Shown here one piece after another: positions 24,446 to 63,538 of a stretch of 64,000 nucleotides of DNA (position 1 is the first letter of the stretch; each line of letters begins with the position of its first letter). Position numbers and translations under genes: made by a program. The notes under the pieces are model-generated. The model made no database searches and was not told the origin of the DNA. It was given only the letters and a program-made list of their open reading frames with translations. Source of the DNA: Betaproteobacteria bacterium RIFCSPLOWO2_12_FULL_68_20 (GTDB lineage: Bacteria > Pseudomonadota > Gammaproteobacteria > Burkholderiales > SG8-39); NCBI GenBank assembly GCA_001770655.1, contig MERQ01000045.1, positions 1-64,000 on the forward strand, written 5' to 3'.

Positions 24446-27153
24446 TCCCGGTAGAGCTTCACGCGCGCGAGGTCGGAGCCGCTGCCGGTCGAGTCGGTGA
24501 GCGAGAGCGCGAGCGAGGTGAGCGTGTTGAGGCTGGGGACCTTCAGGTCCTTCGCATAGGGAGTCTTCCAGTGGTCGAACTGGCCGATCATCAGCACGGT
24601 GTCGGGCCGGATGCCCTCGCGCAGCACCGCGCGGCCGCGCGTGACCCCGGCGACCGACTCGATCGCCACCGCGTCGCCCTCGGCGATGCCGAGCGAGCGG
24701 GCGGTGGCGCGGTTGATGATCACCCCGCGATGCCCGGCGATGTTCGCCGCCACCTCGCTGATGAGCGGCAGCCCCACGTTCGCGCCCCAGGAGTACTGCA
24801 TGCTGCGCGCGGTGAGCGCCCACAACGGGTACTCGGCGGGATCGCGGCCGACCTCGCGCGCGTAATTGATCCAGATGTCGGGAAACCGCTCGTAGCTCGG
24901 CAGGAACTCGTATTCCTTGAGCTGCGTATCCCACCATTCGATTCCGGTCTCGTGCAGCCGATGGGCGAGCTCGCGCCCGTGGCGCACGATGCGCTCCTGG
25001 TACGGCAGCTCGTAGCGAAGGTTCTGGCGCGTCATCGCGGGATGCAGGTACCAGTCGAGCTGGGGAAACGGCGCGAGCATGTAGCCGTGCTCCTTGAACC
25101 AGTCGATGCCGTGGACCTCTTTTCCGTCCGAAAGATCGTGGCTCGCGGCCCTGGCGACCGCGTCCCAGATCTCCTCGAGCGCGTGCGGCTTCGCCGGATC
25201 GAGCGCGTAGTCGAAGCCCTTGCCGCGCAGGCCCATGCCGGCGGCGCCGCGGTTGATCGCCTCGTTGTACTCCTGGAGGATTCCCGTGCGGCGCGCGAGC
25301 TCGGTCGAGATGTCGGTCATGTCCACGCAGTCGAGCGTTTTCGCGGCGGCCGGCTGCCGGATCGCCCAGCCCTCGTGCTTCCAGAACTGCTCGGTGAACT
25401 TGGTGCTGCCGATGCGGATGAGCTGCAGGCTCTCGAGATCGGTCGCCTCCGGCAGCAGCACGTCGGCGAAGTGGTTGGTCTCGTCCTCGGTGTAGGCGAA
25501 GGCGACGATGAACGGGAACTCGGCGAGCCGCTCGGCGACCTCGGGCGCGTTCCACGACGAGATCGCCGGATTGGTGCGGTAGCAGAACCAGACTTCGGGC
25601 GTGGTCTGCTTGGGCCAGTGGTCGGGCTGCTGCTTCTGGAACAGCCACGGCAGGTGCGCCGGCCCGAGCGCCGGCGACCACGGCGAGTTCGACACCAGCG
25701 GCACGAGCGTGCGGAAGGCGTTGCGGATGTGCGGCTTCGACTCCCAGGCCTCGCGCGAGGTGGGATTGAAGTCGTAGCGCATGAAGCCGTCGGGCCCGGG
25801 CAGGCACGAGCCGGTGCGGCTCGCCGCGGGGCGCACCAGCTTTACCGCGGTGCCGAGCGTGCCGCCGGGAACTTCCAGCGCGCCGACGAGCACCGCGAGC
25901 ACGGTGCGCGCCCAGCACGCGTGATAGCCGCCCCAGCCGTTGTTGACGGTCTTTCCGAGCATCACCGCGACCGGACGGAACGGCAGCCTCATGCCCTCGA
26001 TCTCGATCGTCTGGCCGACGCAGGCGTGCGCCAGGTACTCGTCGGCGATGCGCCGGATCGTGGCGGCGGGAACGTCGCACTCGCGCTCGGCCCATTCCGG
26101 CGCGTACGGCGCGACGTGATCGAGCAGCTTCTGGAACGCGGGCTGCGCCTGCGCCGCGTTGTGGCGGATGATCTCGCCGTCGGGCCCGAGCTCGACTCCC
26201 GCCACCTGGAAAGTTCCCGTCAGCGCCGGGTCCCCGACGTTCGCGTCGAACGGCTTCGCCGCGCCGTCCGCGGAATCCCACAGCAGCGGCCGCTTCGATT
26301 CAGGATCGCGCAGGAACCATCCGTTCGGCCCGACCAGATAGGGCGAATTGGTGCGCTGCTTGAGGAACGGCACGTCGCACACCTCGGTCCAGTTGCGCTC
26401 GCAAAGGATGCGGTGGACGAGCGCGAACAGGAACGCCGCGTCGGTCTTCGGCTTGATCGGCACCCACTCGGCCGACATCGCGCCGGTAATGGAGAGGTGC
26501 GGCTCGACCTGCACGCGCTTCGCGCCGCGCACGCGCGCGTCGGCCTCGCGCCACACGCCGACCACGCCGCCGGAAGCCTCGACGTTGTTGCCGCAGTTGA
26601 TGATGTAGTTCACGTACGGCGTGTCGGGCGAGACGATGAACGCGCGGTGCCACAGCTCGCCGTAGAGGTGCTCCGAGTGGTAGCACTTCACCCCCTGGCC
26701 GGCGCCGTAGCCCTGGTCGACCGGGCCCCACGCCGCCATGAACGCCGGGAAGGTGCCCATGTACTGCACCGGCGTACCGCCGCCCCCCGTCGTCACCGCG
26801 AGGCGCGGAAATCCGGACTCGTCCCGCAACCCCCGCTCGCGAATACCGCGCAATCTGGCCGCGACGATCTCAAGGGCCTCGTCCCAGGAGATCGGCGCAA
26901 AGCCCGGGTTCTCGCCCCGCCCCTTCTTCGGGTTGGTGCGCTTCATCGGCTGACGGATGCGGCTCGGGTTGTAGGTCTTCTGCACCAGGCCGTAGGCCTT
27001 CACGCACACCCGCCCGCCGCCGGGATGCTCGCCGCGGATGTCGTAGTTCGACTCGACGCGCAGCGCGATGCCGTCCTCGACCTCGACTTTCATCAGGTCC
27101 GGGCCCGAGACGCACTGATAGCAAAACACCGGGATCTTGCGCTTCTCGCCCAT
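24442..27153 (-). CDS. Molybdopterin oxidoreductase catalytic subunit with atypical FeS motif
   Basis: This 903-residue protein is of the DMSO reductase superfamily. The N-terminal cluster motif is C11-x2-C14 then P18/D19 then C50: the third cysteine is missing and an Asp sits near its place. C157, in VKCYHSEHLYG, is the best candidate for the molybdenum ligand. There is no twin-arginine signal. The segment RTNPKKGRGENPGF is shared with the first molybdenum enzyme of this window, but the two proteins are clearly different overall. The partner is the fused FeS-membrane protein encoded downstream. I do not recognise a characterised substrate. Anaerobic hydroxylation or oxidation of an organic compound is possible given the beta-oxidation genes next door, but unproven. 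Confidence 0.87.
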   Translation of the reverse strand: MGEKRKIPVFCYQCVSGPDLMKVEVEDGIALRVESNYDIRGEHPGGGRVCVKAYGLVQKTYNPSRIRQPMKRTNPKKGRGENPGFAPISWDEALEIVAARLRGIRERGLRDESGFPRLAVTTGGGGTPVQYMGTFPAFMAAWGPVDQGYGAGQGVKCYHSEHLYGELWHRAFIVSPDTPYVNYIINCGNNVEASGGVVGVWREADARVRGAKRVQVEPHLSITGAMSAEWVPIKPKTDAAFLFALVHRILCERNWTEVCDVPFLKQRTNSPYLVGPNGWFLRDPESKRPLLWDSADGAAKPFDANVGDPALTGTFQVAGVELGPDGEIIRHNAAQAQPAFQKLLDHVAPYAPEWAERECDVPAATIRRIADEYLAHACVGQTIEIEGMRLPFRPVAVMLGKTVNNGWGGYHACWARTVLAVLVGALEVPGGTLGTAVKLVRPAASRTGSCLPGPDGFMRYDFNPTSREAWESKPHIRNAFRTLVPLVSNSPWSPALGPAHLPWLFQKQQPDHWPKQTTPEVWFCYRTNPAISSWNAPEVAERLAEFPFIVAFAYTEDETNHFADVLLPEATDLESLQLIRIGSTKFTEQFWKHEGWAIRQPAAAKTLDCVDMTDISTELARRTGILQEYNEAINRGAAGMGLRGKGFDYALDPAKPHALEEIWDAVARAASHDLSDGKEVHGIDWFKEHGYMLAPFPQLDWYLHPAMTRQNLRYELPYQERIVRHGRELAHRLHETGIEWWDTQLKEYEFLPSYERFPDIWINYAREVGRDPAEYPLWALTARSMQYSWGANVGLPLISEVAANIAGHRGVIINRATARSLGIAEGDAVAIESVAGVTRGRAVLREGIRPDTVLMIGQFDHWKTPYAKDLKVPSLNTLTSLALSLTDSTGSGSDLARVKLYRE

Positions 27154-47673: not shown

Positions 47674-48855
47674 TTATATGGCCAACTCGTAGAGCGTCAC
47701 GACGCACGCCCCGCCGAGGCCGATGTTGTGCTGGAGCGCGACGCGCGCGCCCTCGACCTGCCTGTCACCTGCGCTGCCGCGCAGTTGCGACACCAGCTCG
47801 TAGCACTGCGCGAGGCCCGTGGCACCCAGCGGGTGCCCCTTGGAGATCAGCCCACCCGAAGGATTGGTCACCCATTTCCCTCCGAACGTGTTGTCGCCGT
47901 CGGCGATCAGCTTCTCGCCCTCGCCCTCCGGCGCGAGCCCGAGCGCCTCGTAGGAAATCAGCTCGTTGATGGTGAAGCAGTCGTGCAGCTCGATCACGTC
48001 CACGTCCTCGGGCCCGACGCCCGCGGCATCAAAGACCTTGCGCGCGGCCTCCTGCGACATCTCGAAACCGACCGTTTTCCTCATGTCCGATTCGTGGAAG
48101 CTGCCGGCGCGGTCGGTGGTCATCGCCTGGGCCGCAATCCGCACGCGCGCATCGAGCCCGCGCTTTTTCGCGAAGGACTCGGAGACCACCAGCGCCGCGG
48201 CCGCGCCGCAAGTCGGCGGGCAGCACTGCAGGCGCGTGAGCGGCTCGGCCATCATCGGCGAGGCGAGCACCTCTTCCTCGGTGACCTGGTCCTTGAACAG
48301 CGCCAGCGGGTTCTTCGCGGCGTGGCGGCGCGATTTCACCGTGATGCGCGCGAGCAGCTTTTCGTCGAGCCCGAAGCGCCGGCGGTAGTCGCGCGCAGCC
48401 GCCCCGAAGAGCTGCGGCGCGAGCCCTTTCTGCTCCTCGAAGCCATCCTTTTTCGCAGCTTCGAAGAACGCCTCGAGCGGCATCGGGCGGTCGGTGTACT
48501 GGCGCTGCAGCGCCCCCGGAACCATCTGCTCGAAGCCGAGCGCAAGCGCGCACTCGACCGCGCCCGATTCCACCGCCTGCCGGGCGAGATAAAGCGCGCT
48601 CGATCCGGTCGAGCAGTTGTTGTTGACGTTGATTACCGGGATGCCGGTGAGCCCGAGCGGGTACAGCGCCGCCTGGCCGCAGGTCGAATCGCCGTAGACG
48701 TAGCCGACGTAGGCCTGCTCGACCGCTGCGTACTCGAGGCGCGCATCTTCGAGCGCCAGCTTCGCCGCGCGCGTGCCCATCACGTTGTAGGGATCGCTTC
48801 TCCCCGGCTTGGCGAACGGCACCATGCCGACGCCCGCGATCAATGCCTTGCTCAT
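47674..48855 (-). CDS. Thiolase family protein (SCP2/lipid-transfer type)
   Basis: This 393-residue thiolase-fold protein has the nucleophile region NVNNNCSTGSSALYLA, the His motif LISKGHPLGATGLAQ and the C-terminal QHNIGLGGACVVTLYE. This pattern is typical of SCP2-type thiolases acting on branched or steroid-side-chain acyl-CoA. It lies 76 bp after the CoA ligase on the same strand, and 26 bp before the antitoxin start. Confidence 0.91.
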   Translation of the reverse strand: MSKALIAGVGMVPFAKPGRSDPYNVMGTRAAKLALEDARLEYAAVEQAYVGYVYGDSTCGQAALYPLGLTGIPVINVNNNCSTGSSALYLARQAVESGAVECALALGFEQMVPGALQRQYTDRPMPLEAFFEAAKKDGFEEQKGLAPQLFGAAARDYRRRFGLDEKLLARITVKSRRHAAKNPLALFKDQVTEEEVLASPMMAEPLTRLQCCPPTCGAAAALVVSESFAKKRGLDARVRIAAQAMTTDRAGSFHESDMRKTVGFEMSQEAARKVFDAAGVGPEDVDVIELHDCFTINELISYEALGLAPEGEGEKLIADGDNTFGGKWVTNPSGGLISKGHPLGATGLAQCYELVSQLRGSAGDRQVEGARVALQHNIGLGGACVVTLYELAI

Positions 48856-48931: not shown

Positions 48932-50605
48932 TCAAGCCGCGCCCCGCTTGCGATTCTCCTCGTCCTGCAGCGAGCGCCACAGGATCTTGCCGGTCGCGGT
49001 CTTCGGCAGCTCTTCGACGAACTCGACCGTGCGCGGCACCTTGAACGCCGCCATGCGGCCGCGCGCCCAGTCGACGATCTCCTCGGGTTTCGTCCTGCCG
49101 CGCGCCTGCTGCTTCAGCACGATGAGCGCCTTGACGCTCTCGCCGCGATACGCATCCGGCGTGCCGATCACGCACGCCTCCTGAACGTCCGGGTGCGCGT
49201 AGAGCATCGCCTCGACTTCCGCCGGCCAGACCTTGAAACCGGCGGCGTTGATCATGCGCTTCAAGCGGTCGGTGATGAAGAAGTAGCCCTCCTCGTCGTA
49301 GTAGCCGAGGTCGCCGGTGCGCAAGAAGCGATGCCCGTCGTGCTCGAGGAACGCGCGCGCGGTCTCCTCGGGCTGGTTCCAGTAGCCCTTGAACACCTGC
49401 GGGCCGCGCACCACGATCTCGCCCACCTCGCCAGGGCCGCACTCGCGCCCGGTGTCGAGGTCGAGCACGCGCGCGTCGGTGTCGAAGATCGGGACGCCGC
49501 CGCACTGCGGCTTCGGGCGCTGCGGCGGATTCATGTGCGAGGGGGCCATGGTCTCGGTGAGGCCGTAGCCTTCGACGTACGGCAGCCCGATCGTTTCCTC
49601 CAGCCTTTTCGCCACTGCCTCGGGCATCGCCGCGCCGCCGCCGCCGAGCACCTGCAGCGACGACAGGTCGTGCTTTGCGAGCTCCGGGTTGGACACGAAA
49701 TCGACGAGCATCGTCGTGATCGCCGTCCAGTTGGTGACCTTCGCGCGCTCGATCTGCATCGCCGCGCAGTCGCGGTCCCAGCGCGAAAGGATCACCAGCG
49801 TCGCGGCGGCATGGATCGGACCGTTCATCCCGGTCTGCATCCCGGTGACGTGGAAGAAGGGCAGCGCGGCGAGCACGACCGAGTGCTCGGGCGCGCCGCG
49901 CCACCGCAGGTAGGCGGCTGCGGTCGCCTGCACCGTGGCGTGCGTGTGCATGCATCCCTTCGGTCTGCCGGTGGTGCCCGAGGTGTAGGGCATGACCGCG
50001 AGGTCCTCCAGCCCGGCGCGGTGCTCGGCCGGCGCGAGGCCGGCGGCGACGGCGTCGCGCCAGTCGGCGACCGCGGGATGCGCGGGAGTGCGGCGCGGCG
50101 CGTGCACGAAATCCGGCATCGGGAGCCCGGTCGGTGCGTGAAGATGATCCGAGTAGGCCCCGATCACCGCCTGCGCGAGCACCCCGGCGCGCGCGAGCGG
50201 CTCGATGCGGTCCCACAGCTCCTGCGTGGCGACGATCGCATTCGCGCCGCAGTCTTCGGCGTACGTGCGCAGCTCTTCGCTGCGGTACATCGGATTGAGC
50301 GGCACCGCGACCGCGTCGGCGCGCAGGATCGCGTAGTAGCCGATCACGAAATGCGGGCTGTTCTGCGTGAGCAGGATCACCCTGTCGCCTCGCGCGACCC
50401 CGCAGCGCCCCTGCAGGAACCCGGCCAGCGCGTCGGCCTGCCGCCTCAGCTCGAGATAGGAGAGCGTCGAGCCGTAGTAATCGATCGCGACGCGGTCCGG
50501 GAATCGCGCCGCGGCGTGCGCGAGATTGGCGTACACGCCCGCCGTCGCCGCAGGCAGCGACTTCGGGCGGCCCGGCGGCCAGTGAGCGTAATGGCGCGTG
50601 AACAT
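48932..50605 (-). CDS. Acyl-CoA synthetase (AMP-forming)
   Basis: This 557-residue ANL-superfamily ligase has PYTSGTTGRPKG, VEGYGLTETMAPSHMN, TGDLGYYDEEGYF and ELPKTATGKILWR. The overall pattern is that of long-chain fatty acid-CoA ligases, but specificity cannot be read. The ATG at 50605 shares one base with the racemase-like gene's stop, so translation is coupled. A longer frame up to 50641 lies inside that gene. Confidence 0.91.
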   Translation of the reverse strand: MFTRHYAHWPPGRPKSLPAATAGVYANLAHAAARFPDRVAIDYYGSTLSYLELRRQADALAGFLQGRCGVARGDRVILLTQNSPHFVIGYYAILRADAVAVPLNPMYRSEELRTYAEDCGANAIVATQELWDRIEPLARAGVLAQAVIGAYSDHLHAPTGLPMPDFVHAPRRTPAHPAVADWRDAVAAGLAPAEHRAGLEDLAVMPYTSGTTGRPKGCMHTHATVQATAAAYLRWRGAPEHSVVLAALPFFHVTGMQTGMNGPIHAAATLVILSRWDRDCAAMQIERAKVTNWTAITTMLVDFVSNPELAKHDLSSLQVLGGGGAAMPEAVAKRLEETIGLPYVEGYGLTETMAPSHMNPPQRPKPQCGGVPIFDTDARVLDLDTGRECGPGEVGEIVVRGPQVFKGYWNQPEETARAFLEHDGHRFLRTGDLGYYDEEGYFFITDRLKRMINAAGFKVWPAEVEAMLYAHPDVQEACVIGTPDAYRGESVKALIVLKQQARGRTKPEEIVDWARGRMAAFKVPRTVEFVEELPKTATGKILWRSLQDEENRKRGAA

Positions 50606-51699
50606 CAAAGCGCGTAACGCTTCACCGCTTTCTCGTTCCACTTCATGCCCATGCCCGGGCGCTCCGGAATCAGCACACTGCCGTCCTTCAATGCAAGCGG
50701 CTCAGCGAGGATCGGATCGGCCCAGTCCACGTATTCGAGCCAGTGGCCGGTGGGCGTCACCGCGAGCAGATGGCAGCTCGCCTCGGGGAAAAGATGGCTC
50801 GACATCTCCACGCCCGCCCCCTGGGCGAGGGCGGCCGCGCGCATCCAGCCGGTGACGCCGCCGATGCGCTGCGCGTCCGGCATGACGAAGTCGCAGGCGC
50901 CCGCGGCGAGTGCCTGCGCCATCTGCTCCGGCCCCATGAAGTTCTCGCCGATCTGGATGGGCGTGGCCACCTCTCGCGCCACCCTGGCGCAGCCGGCGAA
51001 GTCGTCGGCGCGCACCGGCTCCTCGATCCAGGTCACGCCCCCCTCGTCATCGATCATGCGGCCGCGCCGCACGGCCTCGGCGACCGAAAGCGCCTGGTTG
51101 AAGTCCACCATGAGCGTCACCTCGGGACCGACCGCTTTTTTCACCGCGCGCAGCGCCGCGAGGTCGTCCTTCGCCTGCGGGCGCCCGAGCCGCAGCTTCA
51201 CGGCGCGAAAGCCCTCTTCCACCAGCTCGACCGCTTCTTTCGCCAGCGACTTCGCCGGCATGATGCCCAGGCCCTTGGAGTTGTACGCGGGAATCGGGCG
51301 CGTCGAGCCCCCGAGCAGCCGCACTAGTGGCAGGCCGAGCGCCTGCCCGAGCGCGTCCCATGCCGCCATGTCGATGCCCGACATGGCGAACAGCACGATG
51401 TTGTGCACGCCGAGGAGCGAATATCTCGCGCGCAGCTTCTTTTCCAAGTGGAAGGGGGCCACGGCGTCGCCCTGGACCACCTGCGTCATCGCCTCCACCA
51501 GCGCCGCGATCGGCTTGAGGTGAGCCCGGCCGAGGCCGAAGAGGTACGCGCGGCCGATGATGCCGCCGCTCGTCTGCAGGTCGATGAGGAGGAGCGGCGC
51601 GACGGTGACCGCGCCGATGCTGGTGGTGAGCGGGCGCCGCATCGGTGCCGCGACCGCGCGCAGCCGCACGCCGCGGATCTTGAGCTTTTCAAGCTTCAT
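50605..51699 (-). CDS. Mandelate racemase-like enolase-superfamily enzyme with Lys-to-Arg change
   Basis: This 364-residue enolase-superfamily enzyme closely follows Pseudomonas mandelate racemase along its whole length, as far as I can recall that sequence. Shared features are GIDMAAWDALG, the metal ligands D199 (VDFNQ), E226 (WIEEP) and E252 (GENFMGPE), D275 of MPDAQRIGGVTGW, H302 of MSSHLF and E322 of HWLEYVD. The one striking change is in the KxK motif: AVKLRLG has K168 then R170, so the position of the catalytic Lys166 holds Arg. The His/Asp dyad (H302/D275) is intact. It could be a racemase with altered base, or a dehydratase using the dyad only. The ATG at 51699 is preferred over TTG at 51717. 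It is coupled to a CoA ligase downstream. Confidence 0.87.
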   Translation of the reverse strand: MKLEKLKIRGVRLRAVAAPMRRPLTTSIGAVTVAPLLLIDLQTSGGIIGRAYLFGLGRAHLKPIAALVEAMTQVVQGDAVAPFHLEKKLRARYSLLGVHNIVLFAMSGIDMAAWDALGQALGLPLVRLLGGSTRPIPAYNSKGLGIMPAKSLAKEAVELVEEGFRAVKLRLGRPQAKDDLAALRAVKKAVGPEVTLMVDFNQALSVAEAVRRGRMIDDEGGVTWIEEPVRADDFAGCARVAREVATPIQIGENFMGPEQMAQALAAGACDFVMPDAQRIGGVTGWMRAAALAQGAGVEMSSHLFPEASCHLLAVTPTGHWLEYVDWADPILAEPLALKDGSVLIPERPGMGMKWNEKAVKRYAL

Positions 51700-51808
51700 T
51701 GTCGAACCCGAGGCCAACGCCCAATGGCAGCCTATCTGGATCGATTTGGCAATTCAGAACCTGTGCCAGCGCGAGATTGGCACAGTCCGAAAGACTGAAT
51801 CCGGCCAG

Positions 51809-52558
51809 CTAGAGGATATTCTGAACAATACGAGCCATGCGGGCGCGCACGTTTTCCGCTATTTCGCGCTGCGAAATATTACGCCCGCCGGCATAAACCG
51901 CAATCTTGGTCTTAAAGACCTGTTCGAAAGGTTTGATGCTCGATCGTCTCTCTTCCTGCAACGGCGGGCTAGACGAAAATACGATCGTCTTCTTTGTCTT
52001 TCCAGCCTGCTGGTCGGCCACGCCGACAGTTACTTCAGCAATGGCGATATACGTATCGTCTCGGACGTTGCTGCCAATCACTGCGCCAAGCGCTGCGCCG
52101 GCCAGAACACCTCCCAAGGAACTGCGGACCTCATGTCCGCCGCCGTAAGCAGCGACGCCGCCCGCCGCGCCTCCGAGGAACGTAAATTCCTTAGTTAAAT
52201 TAGTACTTATCTGTCCTGAGTAGAGAACGTTAACGTCGAATCGGATGCCAAAATCGTCTGCGTCACTCGGCCTGAATCCCTTTTGCACCAGTGACGATAG
52301 GAAAGCGTCTCTGAACGATCCCAGGTCGTAGGCGAGGTCCCCGGACACATTTCTTACGGTCACTTTGGCGGTGCGATTCTCAAGCTGAGACGGATCAAGA
52401 ACGAGATTTCGTTCCACCACCGAGCCCCACATTAGTCCCGTTTCCCTGTCCTCGACCATTCCCATTCGACTGGGCTGGGCACAACTTGATACGACGAGCA
52501 CCAACATCGAGGCGTAGATCGAACGTCGGCCTATTTTGCGAACTGACAGTTTCCTCAT
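51809..52558 (-). CDS. TraT-like outer-membrane lipoprotein
   Basis: This 249-residue predicted lipoprotein has a signal peptide ending VVSSC (lipidated C26). The mature part resembles TraT surface-exclusion/complement-resistance proteins: VERNLVLDPSQLENRTAKVT near the start, SLVQKGFRPSDADDFGIRF, a Gly/Ala-rich membrane-like stretch (about residues 130-165), YIAIAEVTVGV, and a final RMARIVQNIL. The hydrophobic Gly-rich segment is typical of TraT. Codon use and base composition differ from the surrounding genome. It is 28 bp downstream of the protease gene and probably co-transcribed with it. Confidence 0.75.
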   Translation of the reverse strand: MRKLSVRKIGRRSIYASMLVLVVSSCAQPSRMGMVEDRETGLMWGSVVERNLVLDPSQLENRTAKVTVRNVSGDLAYDLGSFRDAFLSSLVQKGFRPSDADDFGIRFDVNVLYSGQISTNLTKEFTFLGGAAGGVAAYGGGHEVRSSLGGVLAGAALGAVIGSNVRDDTYIAIAEVTVGVADQQAGKTKKTIVFSSSPPLQEERRSSIKPFEQVFKTKIAVYAGGRNISQREIAENVRARMARIVQNIL

Positions 52559-52586
52559 GGCGAGTCCTTCGAAAACGGTTCTGGAG

Positions 52587-54908
52587 CTAAAAGCCTTCTT
52601 TTAGGAACTCCTGAACTTCCGTGTAGTGAATGGAAAAGGAGATTCCTTCAATGCCCTTCGCCGAATATTTGAAATCATTGACTCCAACTACCTTGCCTTC
52701 CAAGAACAGCGGCCCCCCCGAGTTCCCGGGATTGATTGGCGTATCGGTTTGCACAAATGTCACTTCTTTTCCTCCTACGCCAGAAAGAGCTGGCCGTTTC
52801 CGCACAGCACTGACGACGCCCCGTGTGATACTGAAATTGAGCCCCGCGGGATGGCCAATCGCCTCAACTGTAGAACCCAATGGGATAGGGCCATCGAAGA
52901 ACGTAACCGGTGCGCCGCGAGCTTGAACTTTTACGAGGGCGAGATCCAATCTGACGTCAGATTTCACTACTTTTCCGAAGGTTTCGAGGCCATTGAAAAG
53001 CTTCATTTCAACAAATTGCGAACCTTCTACGACGTGGTAATTAGTCAACACCAAATCGGATTCGACAAAGAATCCCGTCCCTGTCATTCCTTTGGGATTA
53101 TGTACAACAACAACACTCGCAAATCTGGTGTCATTTTGTGTGGTTGTCGACTGGAGCCGAGACTTCTCCTTGTAACCCGCGAGAGTCGTATTCTTGTCTG
53201 CCAGCAACTCGTCACGCATTGCAATGGGACTCTTTAGGGGTTGGGACTGGCCCGGATTACGCAAATACTGATCCAAAACGTCAGATAGTCTCACCGTGCT
53301 CGGCGCATCGTTGAATTTCTTGATCTCAGCTTCCGTGTTGTACGAGCGCAGATGAGTCTCGCGATTTTTGTCCTTTTCGTGGAGCCGATACGCAATTCGA
53401 AAATTCTTCTCTTCTGCGACATCGAACTGCGCTTTAAAATACGTGCGACTTGCCAAATCGATTATGTAGTAGTTGGCAGTGACCGCTTTGCGGGCCGCTA
53501 CATCTGAGGCACTAAATTTGTAGTCGTTGTAGACAGGCTCGGTAATTGTCATTGGCGTCGCGGCGAATATCTTCTGCTGCTCTTGTACCTTTGAGCTAAG
53601 GACACCAGAAAGAATAGCTTTGGCAATGCACCCATATCCATAGCAGTATTGGGACTGATGATTGCTCAGGTTCATTTGCGCCTGGAACACTGCCATTCGT
53701 GCCTGCTCGTAGGACGGATTAGGCGATTCGCGCGAACCCGACAGGAACTGGCTGGGAACTTCATCCCGCTTCTGGACTCGTTGGAGCGTACGGGCAAGGC
53801 TAACGTCCAAGACAATTACAAAGTCAAACTGAGACCCATCAGCACTTAGCGCCTCGTCGAGTGAAGTCTTCTTGACTTCAAATGGCAGGTTCAATTCGAC
53901 GGCGACTGGAAATTCGATCTGGCCCTCCTTAAGAAGCGTTTGACTTGTCGCCTCAGCGAAGGCAATGCGGAATCCAGGCACCTGTGTCGGACTTAGTCCC
54001 GCCTCGCGTGCGCGCAGAAGAGCCTTCGTGGCAAGGCCAAGGCGCTCCGTCGAGCCTGCCGATTGAATTGCCATCTCAACGTATAGATTCGACAGCAATG
54101 CCAAGGCCCTAGAGGAACCCAGGTGGCGCTCATAAGTCTTGGCGAGCGAAAGCACTCCCTCTTGGCCTCCTGCTCGGAGAGCCTCCAGCATTCTGGGAAC
54201 CGCGTCTTCGATTACTTCCTTTGGACTGCCGATCTCGATTGGATAAGCAGTAAAAAAATCTCGCTTCATGTCGAACCGCGAAAGTGCGCTTGTAGCCTGC
54301 GTGCGCCAATATGCTTGGGCAATCTCAATCGCACCCGAAAGCTCGGCAAGATTTAGAAGCTGCGTACTTGCGTCCTTGACTGCTGGAATCGACGTAAACG
54401 CATCGCGCATCTTGATCGCGTTGCTGATTGACTCCTTTGCCGCCGGCCAACTAGATTCATTCTCAGCGGCAGACTTTGATATTGCCTTCCCGACATTAAG
54501 AAAAGCCTGTTGATAGGTCTTGTCCAGTCCTACTGCCAATGCTGCAATCAGCCCAGAATACTTCTCCCGTCGACTCGCAAAAAACTCATCCTTAAACTTT
54601 GAGTAGAGGGCAGAAGCCACTTCGAACTGGCCCTCATCTACTAATTCCTTGAGGTGATCCCCTTCGTCGAAGAAAGGGGTGTAGAACGTCGAAGGCGGGT
54701 CCTTAGGCGACGACAGCGGTGTCGCGATCTCCGCTGACGTTACATTGGCATTGACCTGCTGCGCTGACGCCTGCCAGGTGAGCAACATCCCTAGCACAGC
54801 CAGAAGCCATGAAATTACGAGGTGTTTCGGCTCATTCGTATCTAGTGCTGGTCCAAATACGACTGGGCCGCGCCGGTGACACGCAGAACTGTGACCATTT
54901 CCCCCCAT
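52587..54908 (-). CDS. Large secreted trypsin-like (HtrA/S1C-type) serine protease
   Basis: This 773-residue protein has a hydrophobic segment at residues 31-48 ending ASAQQ, which looks like a signal peptide after a long n-region. The ATG at 54908 is well supported by AAGGGGGAA upstream. Residues 70-330 are helical and repeat-like (TPR-like in places); 330-585 are of unknown fold, with the Cys pair in YCYGYGC. Residues 600-773 are a chymotrypsin-fold protease with a complete triad: H625 (TNYHVVEG), D655 (LDLALVKV) and S730 (NPGNSGGPLF). There is no PDZ domain. The 580-residue N-terminal part is not one I recognise. It sits in the low-GC island with the TraT-like gene. Confidence 0.85.
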   Translation of the reverse strand: MGGNGHSSACHRRGPVVFGPALDTNEPKHLVISWLLAVLGMLLTWQASAQQVNANVTSAEIATPLSSPKDPPSTFYTPFFDEGDHLKELVDEGQFEVASALYSKFKDEFFASRREKYSGLIAALAVGLDKTYQQAFLNVGKAISKSAAENESSWPAAKESISNAIKMRDAFTSIPAVKDASTQLLNLAELSGAIEIAQAYWRTQATSALSRFDMKRDFFTAYPIEIGSPKEVIEDAVPRMLEALRAGGQEGVLSLAKTYERHLGSSRALALLSNLYVEMAIQSAGSTERLGLATKALLRAREAGLSPTQVPGFRIAFAEATSQTLLKEGQIEFPVAVELNLPFEVKKTSLDEALSADGSQFDFVIVLDVSLARTLQRVQKRDEVPSQFLSGSRESPNPSYEQARMAVFQAQMNLSNHQSQYCYGYGCIAKAILSGVLSSKVQEQQKIFAATPMTITEPVYNDYKFSASDVAARKAVTANYYIIDLASRTYFKAQFDVAEEKNFRIAYRLHEKDKNRETHLRSYNTEAEIKKFNDAPSTVRLSDVLDQYLRNPGQSQPLKSPIAMRDELLADKNTTLAGYKEKSRLQSTTTQNDTRFASVVVVHNPKGMTGTGFFVESDLVLTNYHVVEGSQFVEMKLFNGLETFGKVVKSDVRLDLALVKVQARGAPVTFFDGPIPLGSTVEAIGHPAGLNFSITRGVVSAVRKRPALSGVGGKEVTFVQTDTPINPGNSGGPLFLEGKVVGVNDFKYSAKGIEGISFSIHYTEVQEFLKEGF

Positions 54909-55063
54909 GGTCTTCCCCCTTCGCGTCTGCTGATCGCAATACTGCGCCCACGCAAACAGCTACGCAAGATTGCCGTGCGTTCAACTGAACTGTTGTACTG
55001 AGCCCCCCGAGAGCAGAGAGCCAATTTGTCGGAGCCTGCTTCTACCGCAACGGTTACCCGCGG

Positions 55064-55954
55064 TTACGGCTTGTCGCTGGGCCCCCAAATTGAAAGTGGT
55101 GCGGATTTGGCATCGCGCGGAGCCCAGCGCGCGGCCTCGACCTGATGGAAGAAATCCTCGAGCAGGCGGTTGAACAGCTCCGGCTCCTCCAGGTTGAGCA
55201 CGTGGCCGCTCTTCGGCAGCACTGCCAGCGCCGCGGTGTGGATGGCGCGCTTCATGAGCAGCGAGGGCTCGAGCGTGGCGTCGTCCTCGTCGCCGGCCAC
55301 GATGAGAGTCGGCACGTCGATTCGCGCCATCTCGTCCACCAGCGTGTAAAGGGAGGGGCGTTGCGCCTGGCAGCCGAGCATGGTGTTCGCCGAGCCCTGC
55401 GCCGAGTGCCCGGAGAAGTTGCGGATGAATTCAGCGAAGCCGCGCGGGTCCTTCGCCTCGAGTTGCACGCGCGAGGGCCCGTGGCCGTAAGTCGCCGCCG
55501 TTTTCGCCATGCCTTCCTCGAGCATGCGCTTCGCGAGCGCGCGCGCATCTGCCTGGAACTGGGCATGCAGCGCCGGATGCGCGCCGTAGCCGCAGCCAGC
55601 CACGGTAATCGAGAGTGCGCGGTAGCCGTAGGCGATGCCGAAATGAAGCGTGGCGAACGCGCCCATCGACAGCCCGACCACGTGCGCGCGCTGGATGCCG
55701 AGCGCATCGAGCACGCAGCGCGCGTCGTCGCGCGCTCGCGCCTGGGAGTAGCTCTCGATCTGCGGCGGCACGTCGGAAGGCGGATAGCCGCGCGCGTTGT
55801 ACGCGATGCAGCGGTAGCGGCGCGAAAAATGCCGCAGCTGCGGCTCCCAGCTTCGGCAATCGCCGGCGAACTCGTGCACGAAGAGGATCGGGGTTCCCGA
55901 GCCGGTCTCCTCGAAAAACAGCCTGACGCCGTCGTCCGCGGTGACTGTTGGCAT
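55064..55954 (-). CDS. Alpha/beta hydrolase
   Basis: This 296-residue alpha/beta-hydrolase has the oxyanion region LFVHEFAGDCRSW, the nucleophile elbow VVGLSMGAFA, the acid region VAGDEDDATL and catalytic His in KSGHVLNLEEPE. It resembles 3-oxoadipate enol-lactonase or meta-cleavage product hydrolase-like enzymes. It is divergent from an SDR gene with only 14 bp between the start codons. Confidence 0.9.
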   Translation of the reverse strand: MPTVTADDGVRLFFEETGSGTPILFVHEFAGDCRSWEPQLRHFSRRYRCIAYNARGYPPSDVPPQIESYSQARARDDARCVLDALGIQRAHVVGLSMGAFATLHFGIAYGYRALSITVAGCGYGAHPALHAQFQADARALAKRMLEEGMAKTAATYGHGPSRVQLEAKDPRGFAEFIRNFSGHSAQGSANTMLGCQAQRPSLYTLVDEMARIDVPTLIVAGDEDDATLEPSLLMKRAIHTAALAVLPKSGHVLNLEEPELFNRLLEDFFHQVEAARWAPRDAKSAPLSIWGPSDKP

Positions 55955-55968
55955 AATGCAAAGCCTAT

Positions 55969-56709
55969 ATGGACTTGAACCTGAATGGGAAGCGAGTTCT
56001 CGTGACCGGCGGCTCGAAGGGTATCGGTTTCGCCTGCGCCAACGTTTTCGCCGACGAGGGCGCCGAGGTGCGCATCGCGTCGCGAAATCCCCCGGCCGGC
56101 GGGCGCTTCGCCGCGAAAGCGATCGATCTCTCGCGGCGCGGCGCGCCCGAGGAGCTGGCGGCGTGGGCTGGAGACCTGGATATCCTCGTCAACAATGCCG
56201 GCGCGATTCCGGGCGGGGACCTCCTCAAGGTGGACGAGCAGACCTGGCGGCACGCCTGGGATCTCAAGGTGTTCGGCTACATCAATCTCACGCGCGCGGT
56301 GTACGCGCGCATGAAAGCCGCGCGCCGCGGTGTGATCGTCAACATCATCGGCGGCGCCGGCGAGAAGCTCAACGCGTCGTACATCGCCGGAAGCACTGCG
56401 AACGCCGGGTTGATGGCGTTCACGCGCGCGTTGGGAGGCGTCTCGCACGCCGACGGCGTGCGCATCGTCGGAATCAATCCCGGGCCGGTGGCGACGGACC
56501 GGCTGACGAGCCTTTACCGCCAGCAGGCCGAGGCGAAGCTGGGCGACGCCTCGCGCTACCGGGAGCTGTTCGCGGGCATGTCGTTCGGCCGGCCGGCGGC
56601 TCCCGAGGAGATCGCCTGGGCGGCGGCGTTTCTCGCCTCCGAACGCGCCGCCTACATCAGCGGCTGCATCCTCACCATCGACGGCGGCGCGGCGGCGCGC
56701 CCAGGCTGA
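55969..56709 (+). CDS. SDR-family protein lacking the standard catalytic Ser and Lys
   Basis: This 246-residue Rossmann-fold protein has the cofactor motif TGGSKGIGFA and LVNNAGA, and ends with YISGCILTIDGG. The catalytic stretch is abnormal: NASYIAGSTANAG has Y138 but S142 where Lys of YxxxK belongs, and the Ser region reads NIIGGAG. It may use a different catalytic arrangement, or bind cofactor or ligand without SDR chemistry. The downstream gene starts 10 bp later. Confidence 0.85.
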   Translation: MDLNLNGKRVLVTGGSKGIGFACANVFADEGAEVRIASRNPPAGGRFAAKAIDLSRRGAPEELAAWAGDLDILVNNAGAIPGGDLLKVDEQTWRHAWDLKVFGYINLTRAVYARMKAARRGVIVNIIGGAGEKLNASYIAGSTANAGLMAFTRALGGVSHADGVRIVGINPGPVATDRLTSLYRQQAEAKLGDASRYRELFAGMSFGRPAAPEEIAWAAAFLASERAAYISGCILTIDGGAAARPG

Positions 56710-60177: not shown

Positions 60178-60735
60178 ATGCTGCAGATCGTCATCCATGG
60201 GCGCGGCGGCCAGGGCGCCCAGTTGGCCGGCAACCTGCTCGCCATGGCCTTTTTCGCCGAGGGACGGCAGGTGCAGACCTTCGCCACCTACGGCGGCGCG
60301 CGGCGCGGCACCCCGGTCAGCTCCTCCATCCGCGTCGACGACAGGCCGATCCGCCTGCGCTGCGACATCGAGCAGGCCGACGCCATGCTGGTGTTCGACG
60401 CGAGCCTGCTCGACGGCCGGCTGGTCTCGATGGCGCGGCCCGATGCGCTCATCGTCGTGAACTCGCGCAGGACGCCGGCGCAGCTCGCGCAGCAGGCGCC
60501 CGGCTGCCGGGTGCTGCCCGTGGACGGCAGCGCCATCGCGCAGCGCCACGGCCTCGGCCGGATCGTGAATTCCGCGCTGCTCGGTGCCTTCGCCTGCGCG
60601 GTCGGGGAGCCGGACCTGTGGACGCTGAGCGGCACCATCGCCGACGCGGCGCCGAAGGACAGACAGCAGAACGTGGACGCCTGCCTCGCGGGCTACCGCC
60701 TGATCGAAGCGCAGTTGCGCAAGGCCGCCGCATGA
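60178..60735 (+). CDS. 2-oxoacid:acceptor oxidoreductase gamma subunit (PadE-like)
   Basis: This 185-residue protein belongs to the pyruvate/ketoisovalerate oxidoreductase gamma family. It starts LQIVIHGRGGQGAQLAGNLL, the standard motif, with TYGGARRGTPVSSSIRV. It is the first gene of a four-gene operon. The size and order match the gamma subunit of phenylglyoxylate dehydrogenase (PadE) as I recall that operon. The next gene overlaps by 4 bp (ATGA). Confidence 0.92.
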   Translation: MLQIVIHGRGGQGAQLAGNLLAMAFFAEGRQVQTFATYGGARRGTPVSSSIRVDDRPIRLRCDIEQADAMLVFDASLLDGRLVSMARPDALIVVNSRRTPAQLAQQAPGCRVLPVDGSAIAQRHGLGRIVNSALLGAFACAVGEPDLWTLSGTIADAAPKDRQQNVDACLAGYRLIEAQLRKAAA

Positions 60736-62384
60736 GCGCGTTGCCGCTGCCGCCGACCACCTGGACCACCGGCAACACCGATGTGTTCAAGACCGGGACC
60801 TGGCGCAGCGCGCTGCCGGTCTATCGCAATCCGCCGTCGCCCTGTCACCTCGCCTGCCCGGTGAGCGGCGGGATCGCCGCCTGGATCCGGCAGGCGGCGG
60901 TGCGCGACTGGCATGGCGCGTGGACCACGCTCACCGAGAACAATCCGTTTCCCGCGGTCGCCGGCCGCGTCTGCCACCGACCCTGCGAGAGCGCCTGCAA
61001 CCGCGGCGGCTACGACGCGCCGATTTCCATCTGCCGGCTGGAGCGGTTCATCGGCGATCTCGCGCTCGCCGAGGGCTGGCGCCATCCCGAGGTGCCGGTG
61101 ACGCGCAAGGAACGGATCGCGGTCGTCGGCGGCGGCCCCTCGGGGCTGTCGGCGGCCTACCAGCTGCGCCGGCGAGGCTACGCGGTGACGATCTTCGAAG
61201 CGCAGCCGCAGCTCGGCGGCCTGCTGCGCGACGGCATCCCGTCCTACCGTTTGCCGCGCAGCGTGCTCGAAAGCGAGATCCGGCGCATCCTGGAATCGGG
61301 AATCGAGGCGCGCACCGGGGCCGCGCTCGCCACGGCGCAGGAGCTCGAGCGGCTGCGCGCCGAATTCGACGCCGTCTATCTCGCCATGGGGGCGCGCCGC
61401 CAGAAGCGCCTGCCGGGGCTCGACTACGCGCAGCCCTGGGTCATGGACGGCGCGGCTTATCTCGCGCAGGCGAACGCCGGCGCTCCGCCCGCGCTCGGGC
61501 GGCGCCTCGCGGTCATCGGCGGCGGCAGCGCGGCGATGGACGTCGCGCGCAGCGCGCGCCGCGCCGGCCACGAGGTCAGGGTGCTTTCGCTCGAGCGCGA
61601 AGCGCAGATGCCCGCCCAGCGCGAGGAAGTGATCGAAGCGAAGGAGGAAGGCGTCGCGTTCCTCGAGGGCGCGATGCTGTGCGCGGCCGCCGCCGACGGC
61701 GCCGGCGGCCTGGAGCTCGATTGCGTGCGGGTGCTGTTCGAGGCCGGAGCGCGGCCCGGCGAGTTCCGGGTCACGCCCGTGGCGGGCAGCGAGTTCGTGC
61801 TCGCGGCCGATGCGGTCGTGCCCGCGATCGGCCAGGACCCGGAGCTGGCGCCCGTGCGTTCCCTGCTCGACGCCGAGGACGCGCTCATCCGCACCGACTC
61901 GCGGCAGGCGACGAGCCTCGAGGGCGTATTCGCCGGCGGCGACGTCGCGAGCCGCGCGCGTTTCGTCACCCAGGCGATCGGCATGGGCAGGGAGGCGGCG
62001 CAGCAGATCGACCGGATGCTACAGGGGCGGGCCGCGGCGCGGGCGAGCGCCGAGCCGGCGCTGCCGCTCGAGGCCATCAACACCTATTACTTCCCGCACG
62101 CCGGGCGCGCGCGCGACGCCCGGCTCGGGGCGCGCGAGCGGCTGCGCGGCTACGCCGAGGTGCAGCTCGGGATGGCGACCGAGCAGGCGCTCGCCGAGGC
62201 CGCGCGCTGCTTTTCCTGCGGCAACTGCATCTTCTGCGACAACTGCCTCGATTACTGCCCCGAATTGGCGGTGCGGCGCAGCGACGGCGCCTACGCGGTG
62301 GACGGCGACTACTGCAAGGGCTGCGGCCTGTGCGCCGAGGAATGCCCGACCGGATCGATCGCGATGCGCGAGGAGCTGCGGTGA
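60732..62384 (+). CDS. NAD(P)H-flavoprotein fused to a 2[4Fe-4S] ferredoxin domain
   Basis: This 550-residue protein resembles the small subunit of glutamate synthase. It has an N-terminal Cys-rich region (PCHLACPV; RVCHRPCESACNRGG), an FAD motif VVGGGPSGLSAAY (about residue 131) and an NAD(P)H motif VIGGGSAAMDVARSA (about residue 259). A C-terminal ferredoxin domain has CFSCGNCIFC-DNCLDYCP and CKGCGLCAEECP. In phenylglyoxylate dehydrogenase the flavoprotein (PadH) and ferredoxin (PadF) are separate; here they are one chain. It would pass electrons from the catalytic subunits to NAD(P)+. The ATG at 60732 overlaps the gamma stop. Confidence 0.88.
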   Translation: MSALPLPPTTWTTGNTDVFKTGTWRSALPVYRNPPSPCHLACPVSGGIAAWIRQAAVRDWHGAWTTLTENNPFPAVAGRVCHRPCESACNRGGYDAPISICRLERFIGDLALAEGWRHPEVPVTRKERIAVVGGGPSGLSAAYQLRRRGYAVTIFEAQPQLGGLLRDGIPSYRLPRSVLESEIRRILESGIEARTGAALATAQELERLRAEFDAVYLAMGARRQKRLPGLDYAQPWVMDGAAYLAQANAGAPPALGRRLAVIGGGSAAMDVARSARRAGHEVRVLSLEREAQMPAQREEVIEAKEEGVAFLEGAMLCAAAADGAGGLELDCVRVLFEAGARPGEFRVTPVAGSEFVLAADAVVPAIGQDPELAPVRSLLDAEDALIRTDSRQATSLEGVFAGGDVASRARFVTQAIGMGREAAQQIDRMLQGRAAARASAEPALPLEAINTYYFPHAGRARDARLGARERLRGYAEVQLGMATEQALAEAARCFSCGNCIFCDNCLDYCPELAVRRSDGAYAVDGDYCKGCGLCAEECPTGSIAMREELR

Positions 62385-63538
62385 GCCCCGGAAACGATGC
62401 GGTGCTTCTGACGGGCAACCACGCCGTCGCCTGGGGCGCGCGGCTGGCGCGGCCGAAGGTGGTGCCGGTCTATCCGATCACGCCGCAGACGCCGATCCTG
62501 GAGCTGCTCACCGAGTTCCAGGCGCAAGGGGAGCTGGAGGCGGAGATCATCACCCCGGAGTCCGAGCACTCGGTGATGGCGGCCTGCATCGCGGCCTCGC
62601 TCGGGGGCGTGCGCGTTTTCACCGCCACCGCCTCGCAGGGCCTGATGCTGATGCACGAGCTGCTGCACTACGCGAGCGGCGCGCGCGCGCCGATCGTGAT
62701 GGCGAACGTCAACCGCACCATCGCCTCGCCCTGGGGGTTCTGGCCCGACCAGACCGACAGCGTCGCCCAGCGCGACACCGGCTGGATCCAGTTCTACGTG
62801 GAAAGCGCGCAGGAAGGGCTCGACACGGTGCTCCAGGCGTTCCGCATCGCCGAGCGCGTGCGGCTGCCGGTGATGATCAACCTGGACGCGTTTTACGTCT
62901 CGCACTCGCTCGAGCCGGTGCGCGTGCCGCCGCAGGCGCTGGCCGACGAGTACCTGCCGCCCTATGCGCCCGAGCATTATCTCGATCCCGCCCGGGGCGA
63001 GTCCTGGGGCAACGTCGTCACCCAGGAGATGTACTGGCGCCATCGCCGGGACATCGGCGGCGCCATGGACGCCGTGCCCGAAGTCGCCGCCGAAGCCGAT
63101 CGCGAATGGCAGCGGCTCAGCGGCCGCGGCTGGGACCTCGTCGAGCGCTACCGCTGCGAGGGCGCCGACCTCGTCGTCCTCACCATGGGCAGCATGTGCG
63201 GCACGGCGCGCGAGGCCGTGGACGAGCTGCGCGACGCCGGGCACGCGGCCGGGCTGCTCAAGGTGCGGCTGTTCAGGCCGCTGCCGGCCGCCGAGCTGCG
63301 CCGCGCGCTCGCGGGCGTGCGCGACGTGCTGGTGCTCGACCGGAACTTTTCTCCGGGGGCGGGCGGCGTGCTGCACCAGGAGCTGCGCGCCGCGCTCTAT
63401 GGAACGGCGGCGGCGCCGCGCGTGCACGGCGCGCTCGCGGGCGTGGGCGGCGTGAACGTGCCGCCGGCGAAGATCGCCGAGCTCGCCGGGCGCGCGAGAA
63501 GTAGCGAGCCGCTCCCCGAGGCCGTATGGGCAAGATGA
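62381..63538 (+). CDS. 2-oxoacid:acceptor oxidoreductase alpha subunit (PadG-like)
   Basis: This 385-residue protein is the pyrimidine-binding (POR N-terminal) subunit of a CoA-dependent 2-oxoacid oxidoreductase. It reads VYPITPQTPILELL, TPESEHSVMAACIAASLGG and FTATASQGLMLMHELLHYAS, and includes the POR domain II near residue 260. The GTG at 62381 overlaps the flavoprotein stop (GTGA). It pairs with the beta subunit downstream. Pyruvate, phenylglyoxylate and indolepyruvate are all possible substrates from this subunit alone. Confidence 0.93.
   Translation: MSPGNDAVLLTGNHAVAWGARLARPKVVPVYPITPQTPILELLTEFQAQGELEAEIITPESEHSVMAACIAASLGGVRVFTATASQGLMLMHELLHYASGARAPIVMANVNRTIASPWGFWPDQTDSVAQRDTGWIQFYVESAQEGLDTVLQAFRIAERVRLPVMINLDAFYVSHSLEPVRVPPQALADEYLPPYAPEHYLDPARGESWGNVVTQEMYWRHRRDIGGAMDAVPEVAAEADREWQRLSGRGWDLVERYRCEGADLVVLTMGSMCGTAREAVDELRDAGHAAGLLKVRLFRPLPAAELRRALAGVRDVLVLDRNFSPGAGGVLHQELRAALYGTAAAPRVHGALAGVGGVNVPPAKIAELAGRARSSEPLPEAVWAR

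Follow-up and report, generated by a model that had tools for sequence, protein, structure and literature searches.

Arginine in place of the catalytic Lys166 in a widespread bacterial group of mandelate-racemase-like proteins

Mandelate racemase, in which Lys166 serves as one of two acid/base catalysts, is a model enzyme for two-base catalysis on carbon acids. A 364-amino-acid open reading frame (ORF) in contig MERQ01000045.1 of Betaproteobacteria bacterium RIFCSPLOWO2_12_FULL_68_20, of which the stretch from position 1 to 64,000 was analysed (the window), encodes a mandelate-racemase-like protein with an arginine, Arg170, at the place of this lysine, which raises the question of what such a protein does. 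To judge from its sequence and distribution, the arginine form looks like a working enzyme type kept in a large bacterial family and not a quirk of one genome. Its activity is tentatively predicted to be that of a Mg2+-dependent racemase or epimerase of a hydrophobic 2-hydroxyacid, forming a distinct Arg type in the mandelate-racemase-like family, a reading to which we give somewhat less than an even chance. A large natural group that lacks Lys166 but keeps the rest of the site, with one member crystallised, bears on how the lysine became essential and on how racemases and dehydratases of the superfamily diverge, and lets one ask if arginine can be an acid/base in this fold when its surroundings fit.

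The ORF list and translation place an ATG start at 51699, and an alternative in-frame TTG start at 51717 is possible. Both Pfam domains scored above their cut-offs (MR_MLE_C, 205.5 bits; MR_MLE_N, 60.1 bits), and these domains, the metal ligands and the His/Asp dyad place the predicted protein in the mandelate racemase subgroup of the enolase superfamily. The best PDB sequence matches were Pseudomonas putida mandelate racemase entries (expectation value (E) 2e-104 and similar), 46% identical along the whole sequence, with 3ugv and 3toy next. The HMMER alignment put Arg170 at the Lys166 position, and the top PDB sequence, 1mdl, is by its entry title the laboratory K166R mutant, whose arginine aligned with Arg170 with no gaps nearby. 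The three acidic metal ligands and the His/Asp dyad are kept, as in all 49 aligned KxR proteins, and the mandelate racemase residues Lys164, Asn197 and Glu317 are matched by Lys168, Asn201 and Glu322. The phenyl pocket is still hydrophobic (V22 to L, V26 to I, V29 and F52 kept, L319 to V), and Tyr54 is replaced by Leu, with mostly Ile, Val, Leu or Met in close relatives. The original prediction, made from the DNA letters alone, had claimed the arginine at the catalytic lysine position, the conservation of the metal ligands, the H302/D275 dyad and E322, and closeness to mandelate racemase, and each of these held; the outcomes that it named as refuting, a lysine at the catalytic position or a protein far from mandelate racemase, were not found in the alignment or the trees.

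In the window's genome the protein is the strongest of four enolase C-domain matches and the sole match to its own sequence at E 1e-40, and at that threshold a match was found in 65 of the 120 relatives' genomes searched, the window's own genome included. All 29 of the best-matching relatives kept as loci (L006-L034, 55 to 81% identical) carry K-x-R, one of these sequences ending at residue 267 and another having an unreadable run at D195, and a lone substitution or sequencing error is ruled out by this. The site is arginine in 17, lysine in seven and serine in one of 25 further loci (L035-L059, 35 to 71% identity). In the named-genome collection (84,980 species), whose loci are partly from the same species as L006-L059, the best 80 of 590 loci comprised 49 with arginine, 29 with lysine, one with cysteine and one starting past the site; the arginine loci include Bradyrhizobium, Methylobacterium, Afipia, Methylocystis and Rhodospirillales, as well as SAR116, Thioglobus (SUP05-type) and a Rokuibacteriota sequence, and 15 of the 29 lysine loci are distant homologues with at most 36% identity. 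An even draw of 398 genomes across the phylum, searched with alignment A1, gave a family member at E 1e-90 in 15 genomes including the window's; the other 14 members divided into eight with arginine and six with lysine, but nine of them (six and three, respectively) came from one genus, so that the draw is thinner than it looks. The arginine codons at the site were mostly CGN (103 of 116 counted, repeated fetches of one locus included). Strong conservation of the arginine across distant bacteria argues for an active enzyme.

An AlphaFold2 model of the window protein, built from 40 aligned sequences, had a mean predicted local distance difference test (pLDDT) score of 96.7 and matched mandelate racemase 7mqx with Z 55.7 and a root-mean-square deviation of 1.1 Å over 358 aligned residues, the K166R mutant 1mdl with Z 54.6 and 1.1 Å over 357 residues, and 3ugv, 3toy and 3tte with Z 54.6, 54.5 and 53.5. 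Talarate/galactarate dehydratase entries gave Z 47.8 to 48.1 (2pp0, Z 47.9). The fold-match output consists of ranges and not residue pairs, and rows within one Z unit were taken as tied, so that the fold alone gives no ranking among the top matches. A misalignment at Arg170 is ruled out by the gapless match to the 1mdl arginine and by the 1.1 Å fold match. Rejected as family assignments were L-talarate/galactarate dehydratase (NCBIfam, 218.6 bits; cut-off 500), with the other acid-sugar dehydratase models listed also far below their cut-offs, o-succinylbenzoate synthase (MenC; NCBIfam, 63.9 bits; cut-off 200.65), with lower scores for the other MenC models listed, and muconate cycloisomerase, whose family model also scored below its cut-off.

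Comparison with the known relatives sets the window protein apart from each of them. With P. putida mandelate racemase (2mnr, 1mns, 3uxk, 7mqx) it shares the fold, the metal ligands, Lys164, Asn197, His297/Asp270, Glu317 and a mostly hydrophobic pocket, but at the places of Lys166, Asp138, Ala155, Leu321 and Tyr54 it has Arg, Asn, Leu, Trp and Leu, respectively, its beta-1 loop is longer, and the gene context differs as far as it was scanned. The entry 3ugv (enolase of alpha proteobacterium BAL199, EFI-501650), whose structure dates from 2011, is a natural K-L-R protein that falls within the Arg group in the trees; unlike the window protein it belongs to another Arg-type subgroup and has Glu at the place of Phe52. 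Its title names no reaction, and no paper mentioning it was found among the open-access papers searched. The entries 3toy and 3tte (BRADO_4202 of Bradyrhizobium ORS278, 3tte being solved with mandelic acid) are 46% identical to the window protein but read K-S-K, with lysine at the Lys166 position; open-access matches for both entries and their EFI targets were off-topic by title and include a general fold-architecture paper that mentions 3tte. L-talarate/galactarate dehydratase (2pp0) has the same subgroup and fold, with 30% identity only.

In mandelate racemase the alpha proton is abstracted by Lys166 when the substrate is (S)-mandelate and by His297 when it is (R)-mandelate (PMC9835602, in excerpt), so that the Lys166 position has a real catalytic role in the model enzyme. 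An extract of PMC5467563 defines the mandelate racemase family by its pairing of His and Lys as acid and base, and by this definition the window protein, with Arg170 at the Lys166 place, is not a member. Database names are no help for this family, since its misannotation was put at up to 90% in 2009 (PMC2781113, in extract). No natural K-to-R racemase was recognised among the literature matches listed, which were open-access only and make this a weak negative. The subgroup is already known, and the Arg type would be a distinct, uncharacterised enzyme type within it.

When 49 Arg and 19 Lys family members were aligned, further residues were found to go with the arginine. Asn140 (Asp138 in mandelate racemase), Gly143 and Trp326 are present in all 49 Arg proteins versus four, three and four of the 19 Lys proteins, respectively, and Leu159 is present in all 49 versus none of the 18 Lys rows read at this site. 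The beta-1 loop of the Arg proteins reads Y-N-S/T-x-G-L and exceeds that of 13 of the 19 Lys proteins by two residues. Pairwise alignment in the phylum-wide draw found Asn140, Gly143, Leu159 and Trp326 in all eight Arg members, while among the six Lys members Asn140 and Trp326 were found in none, Gly143 in four and Leu159 in one. The model has Asn140 and Arg170 as the last residues of strands 135-140 and 166-170, respectively, and because these strands are adjacent in the fold we infer, from that adjacency and not from coordinates, that Asn140 and the beta-1 loop hold the Arg170 guanidinium. For annotation, K-x-R plus Y-N-S/T-x-G-L would tell Arg-type genes from true mandelate racemases.

The history of the two forms was examined in three trees built without the columns that carry the traits themselves (K-x-R and the beta-1 loop): a quick tree of 112 rows, which skipped hand-listed near-duplicate loci, rows of fewer than 300 amino acids and rows with unreadable runs, and careful trees of 81 and 65 rows. 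A 97-row alignment combined 77 rows hand-picked from the 112 with 20 further outgroup rows; 16 of its rows were dropped for speed in the 81-row tree, which has the 20 outgroup rows, and the 65-row tree, drawn from the same 97 rows, has the four nearest outgroup rows. Lys proteins, including P. putida mandelate racemase, branch inside the Arg proteins in all three trees, and arginine formed one side of a branch in none of 200 bootstrap trees in either careful run. Forcing a single Arg clade cost 19.3 log-likelihood units in the 81-row tree (p of the approximately unbiased test (p-AU) 0.043) and 24.8 units in the 65-row tree (p-AU 0.086), where the starred branches alone still permit one origin; forcing a single Lys clade in the 81-row tree cost 10.1 units (p-AU 0.146) and was not rejected. 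The groups for these constraint tests were chosen with an earlier tree already in view. A single clean Arg clade, absent from the best trees and costly to force, is therefore disfavoured, with borderline tests. The Lys proteins, too, fall into more than one clade in the best trees, which need three to four changes, and a small Arg group (L083, L093, L119, L135) lies beside or among the Lys proteins. The nearest outgroup residues at the site are R, R, R and S, and the wider outgroup has K, Q and R.

The trees suggest that arginine is ancestral and that Lys166 was re-acquired, a history that is better supported but not proven. The comparison also reveals more than one replacement of the second KxK lysine within the mandelate racemase subgroup. 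The idea that the K-to-R form might be a clade was borne out in that the group is large and coherent, but not in its shape, which is paraphyletic in the best trees, and the implicit assumption of an arginine departing from a lysine ancestor runs opposite to the lean of all three. A broader claim, that an ancestral arginine is an active acid/base, or the partner of one, in widespread 2-hydroxyacid racemases and that Lys166 was re-acquired as the longer beta-1 loop was lost, must be called doubtful at present. If it were true, nature would have carried out the K166R experiment in reverse, and the residues that vary with the arginine would reveal how an Arg-type racemase functions.

Other substitutions at the site were also seen. 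An Oceanospirillaceae homologue (L131, 7001-8065) has K-x-C at the motif and changed counterparts of the dyad and of Glu317 (N, N, Q), and probably has a different or lost function. A separate lineage of the mandelate racemase subgroup has K-T-Q or K-M-Q for KxK (L156, L157, L159, L160, L166, L167, L169, L171 and L172) and keeps the counterparts of the metal ligands, the His/Asp dyad and Glu317.

The neighbours of Arg genes in other subfamilies include several kinds of oxidoreductase. A ketopantoate-reductase-family gene (PF02558/PF08546) lies directly upstream on the same strand, with gaps of 3-210 bp, in 11 of the 91 Arg loci with enough flank. The PDB entries 3wfi, 3wfj and 5x20 match the reductase partner in L092 at E 3e-15, behind entries named 2-dehydropantoate 2-reductase, and 3wfi is presumably the D-mandelate dehydrogenase. 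The Enterococcus D-mandelate dehydrogenase, which is active on 2-ketoisovalerate and benzoylformate, belongs to the ketopantoate reductase family, as stated in an excerpt of PMC4230899. In L033/L074, L044 and L187 the Arg gene has a gene for a GlcD-like flavin adenine dinucleotide (FAD) dehydrogenase close by, the proteins of L033/L074 and L187 being 81% and 65% identical to that of L044, and L040 has a GlcD-like gene 2.3 kb off whose protein scored 335.5 bits, below the GlcD cut-off of 567.9. In L134 an Ldh_2 (malate/L-lactate-dehydrogenase-type) gene is directly downstream of the Arg gene. Together, the reductase, GlcD-like and Ldh_2 neighbours point to 2-hydroxyacids as probable substrates of part of the Arg type. 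In the 81-row tree the window's subfamily joins the reductase/GlcD group (L040, L033, L044, L120) with support of 96/96, and in the 112-row tree it does so with a Shimodaira-Hasegawa-like approximate likelihood ratio test (SH-aLRT) value of 94.

In the window's own subfamily the partners are different. Context was counted in 32 relatives of at least 63% identity, which include at least two pairs probably from the same assembly (L075/L008 and L076/L018); 28 of them had enough flank for the ligase and 31 for the hydrolase and hydratase. Of these, 21 of 28 have a CoA ligase directly downstream, 17 of 31 have an alpha/beta hydrolase at most 1.3 kb upstream, and 10 of 31 have an enoyl-CoA hydratase gene directly upstream, although one of the ten (L075) probably duplicates L008. 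Among all 32, a short-chain dehydrogenase lies no more than 2.5 kb away in 12 and a zinc alcohol dehydrogenase in nine. No such ligase or hydrolase lies beside the gene in G052/L068, G062/L072 and L077; directly downstream in L072 is a protein that scores above the 4,5-DOPA-extradiol-dioxygenase cut-off. In the window the ligase (Table 1) has a GTG start at 50641, so that its first 37 nt are shared with the end of the racemase-like gene. The overlap behind the coupling to a CoA ligase that the original prediction claimed is real, and an overlap or short gap is usual in the relatives.

Table 1. Positions in the window of the arginine-type gene, its active-site codons and selected other genes
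Feature	Position	Strand	Basis
Enolase-superfamily gene, mandelate-racemase-like, K-x-R type, 364 amino acids	50605-51699	-	ORF, Pfam, best PDB match
Arg170 codon (CGG), Lys166 position	51190-51192	-	Alignments, codon read
Lys168 codon (mandelate racemase Lys164)	51196-51198	-	Alignments
Asp199 codon, metal ligand (D195)	51103-51105	-	Alignments
Glu226 codon, metal ligand (E221)	51022-51024	-	Alignments
Glu252 codon, metal ligand (E247)	50944-50946	-	Alignments
Asp275 codon, dyad partner (D270)	50875-50877	-	Alignments
His302 codon, acid/base (H297)	50794-50796	-	Alignments
Glu322 codon (E317)	50734-50736	-	Alignments
AMP-forming acyl-CoA ligase	48932-50641	-	NCBIfam PRK08314, 831.8 bits (cut-off 705)
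Thiolase-like protein (SCPx/lipid-transfer type), downstream of ligase	47674-48855	-	NCBIfam PRK08256, 655.5 bits (cut-off 436)
Low-GC (guanine plus cytosine) islet: TraT-like lipoprotein gene and Trypsin_2 protease gene	51700-55000	.	GC 0.48-0.57 versus ~0.68; Pfam
Alpha/beta hydrolase, upstream partner in relatives, here displaced 3.4 kb	55064-55954	-	Pfam Abhydrolase_1
Short-chain dehydrogenase, divergent from hydrolase	55969-56709	+	NCBIfam PRK06125, 340.3 bits (cut-off 261)
2-Oxoacid:acceptor oxidoreductase operon (gamma subunit, GltD-like flavoprotein, alpha subunit)	60178-63538		

In the favoured mechanism the enzyme would bind a 2-hydroxycarboxylic acid with a hydrophobic side chain, and Mg2+ would assist its enolisation with His302 on one face; re-protonation on the opposite face would make the enzyme a racemase or epimerase. 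His302 would serve one enantiomer and Arg170 the other, the arginine being held by the co-varying Asn140, Gly143, longer beta-1 loop, Leu159 and Trp326. In the window's subfamily the enantiomer so formed would go to the coupled acyl-CoA ligase for activation, and in some other Arg subfamilies it would pass to 2-hydroxyacid oxidoreductases. The active site, complete except for K166R, counts for this reading, as do the close fold match, the conserved arginine, the largely retained mandelate-type pocket, and the oxidoreductase neighbours of other Arg subfamilies with the tree grouping given above.

Several points weigh against racemisation. Arginine is a poor general base, and engineered K166R mandelate racemase is slow. 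The ketopantoate-reductase-family neighbour was found in none of 24 Lys loci versus 11 of 91 Arg loci, a difference that is not significant (Fisher p 0.12, a rough value since the rows are near relatives, some perhaps of the same species, and not independent), and this link was rejected as an Arg-versus-Lys marker; it is confined to two subgroups and was found in none of the eight Arg loci of the phylum-wide draw. Weak GlcD-like matches (30 to 31%) also lie beside two Lys genes (L046 and L047). Such oxidoreductases were not found adjoining the gene in the window's own subfamily, whose partners (hydrolase, ligase, and hydratase in 10 of 31) suit other chemistry, and the grouping of this subfamily with the reductase/GlcD group was not recovered in the 65-row careful tree. 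The gene context points both ways, to racemisation and to one-base dehydration.

It is possible, although on the whole unlikely, that the protein is a one-base dehydratase, in which His302 would remove the alpha proton and a C3 leaving group would be expelled with Glu322/His302, while Arg170 would only bind the carboxylate and steady the enolate; the CoA ligase would then activate the product, an unsaturated or 2-oxo acid, for hydration by the enoyl-CoA hydratase of the relatives. The menaquinone genes menH, menB, menC and menE follow the same order by superfamily, namely hydrolase, crotonase, enolase-like protein and ligase, and MenC is a dehydratase. That order, with an enoyl-CoA hydratase as the crotonase, was seen in L062, L015/L067, L020, L022, L025, L038 and others, and it speaks for dehydration, as do the thiolase and short-chain dehydrogenase near in the window and the fact that many members of the subgroup are acid-sugar dehydratases, as given in an extract of PMC7246345. 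Among the families listed in scans of the genes of the window and the relatives, every Men model stayed below its cut-off, so that the likeness to the men order is one of logic only. The scores far below cut-off for the Men and acid-sugar dehydratase models given above count against a dehydratase, the nearest characterised relative is a racemase, the hydrophobic pocket seems unlike what a sugar acid would need, and dehydrating a 3-hydroxyacid ahead of beta-oxidation would be roundabout.

The hydrolase and the long-chain-type acyl-CoA ligase, together with the loss of Tyr54, would also fit a racemase or epimerase of an acid without a 2-hydroxy group, such as a 2-aryl or 2-alkyl acid from a hydrolase-cleaved ester, supplying the enantiomer used by the ligase. 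This is improbable, as Lys164, Asn197 and Glu317 are all kept and the substrate is itself hypothetical; moreover, in substrate-bound mandelate racemase structures the carboxylate and alpha-OH of mandelate chelate Mg2+ (PMC9835602, in excerpt). Less probable still is an ordinary mandelate racemase with a tuned, slower active site: the 46% full-length identity and the closest fold would suit it, but the His and Lys pair that defines the family (PMC5467563, in extract) is lacking, the KxR proteins share a loop and invariant residues of their own, and scans of the neighbours and of part of the window's genes showed no recognisable mandelate pathway genes ((S)-mandelate dehydrogenase, benzoylformate decarboxylase). 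A catalytically dead or relic homologue, suggested by the loss of one of two catalytic groups, is very improbable given a widely conserved form, a gene in a conserved cluster and other catalytic residues that are invariant in all 49 aligned KxR proteins. The remaining probability lies with reactions outside these readings.

The low-GC islet separates the hydrolase from the racemase-like gene in the window, whereas in the relatives this pair is contiguous or split only by the hydratase gene or by about 1.1 kb. Around the islet, a search for a mobile-element signature gave only short imperfect repeats and no clear flanking repeats. The thiolase-like gene had a single weak match in the relatives' loci (29%, L028), which was not downstream of the ligase.

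A phenylglyoxylate dehydrogenase-like operon had also been reported near the gene. A 2-oxoacid oxidoreductase operon does start at 60178, but phenylglyoxylate dehydrogenase (Pad) was rejected, as the Pad models scored far below their cut-offs (PadE, 93.8 bits, cut-off 300; PadG, 274.6 bits, cut-off 700). The gamma subunit matches the generic PorC_KorC subfamily (125.3 bits, cut-off 81.1), the GltD-like flavoprotein is over the PRK12771 cut-off, and the alpha subunit has PorA_Arch as its best match, below cut-off. By these model scores the operon is not specifically one for phenylglyoxylate dehydrogenase, and its sole apparent link to the racemase-like gene is distance. One full-length FMN_dh protein is encoded on another contig of the window's genome, and two large proteins in the window (376-2964 and 24442-27153) are molybdopterin oxidoreductase-like by eye.

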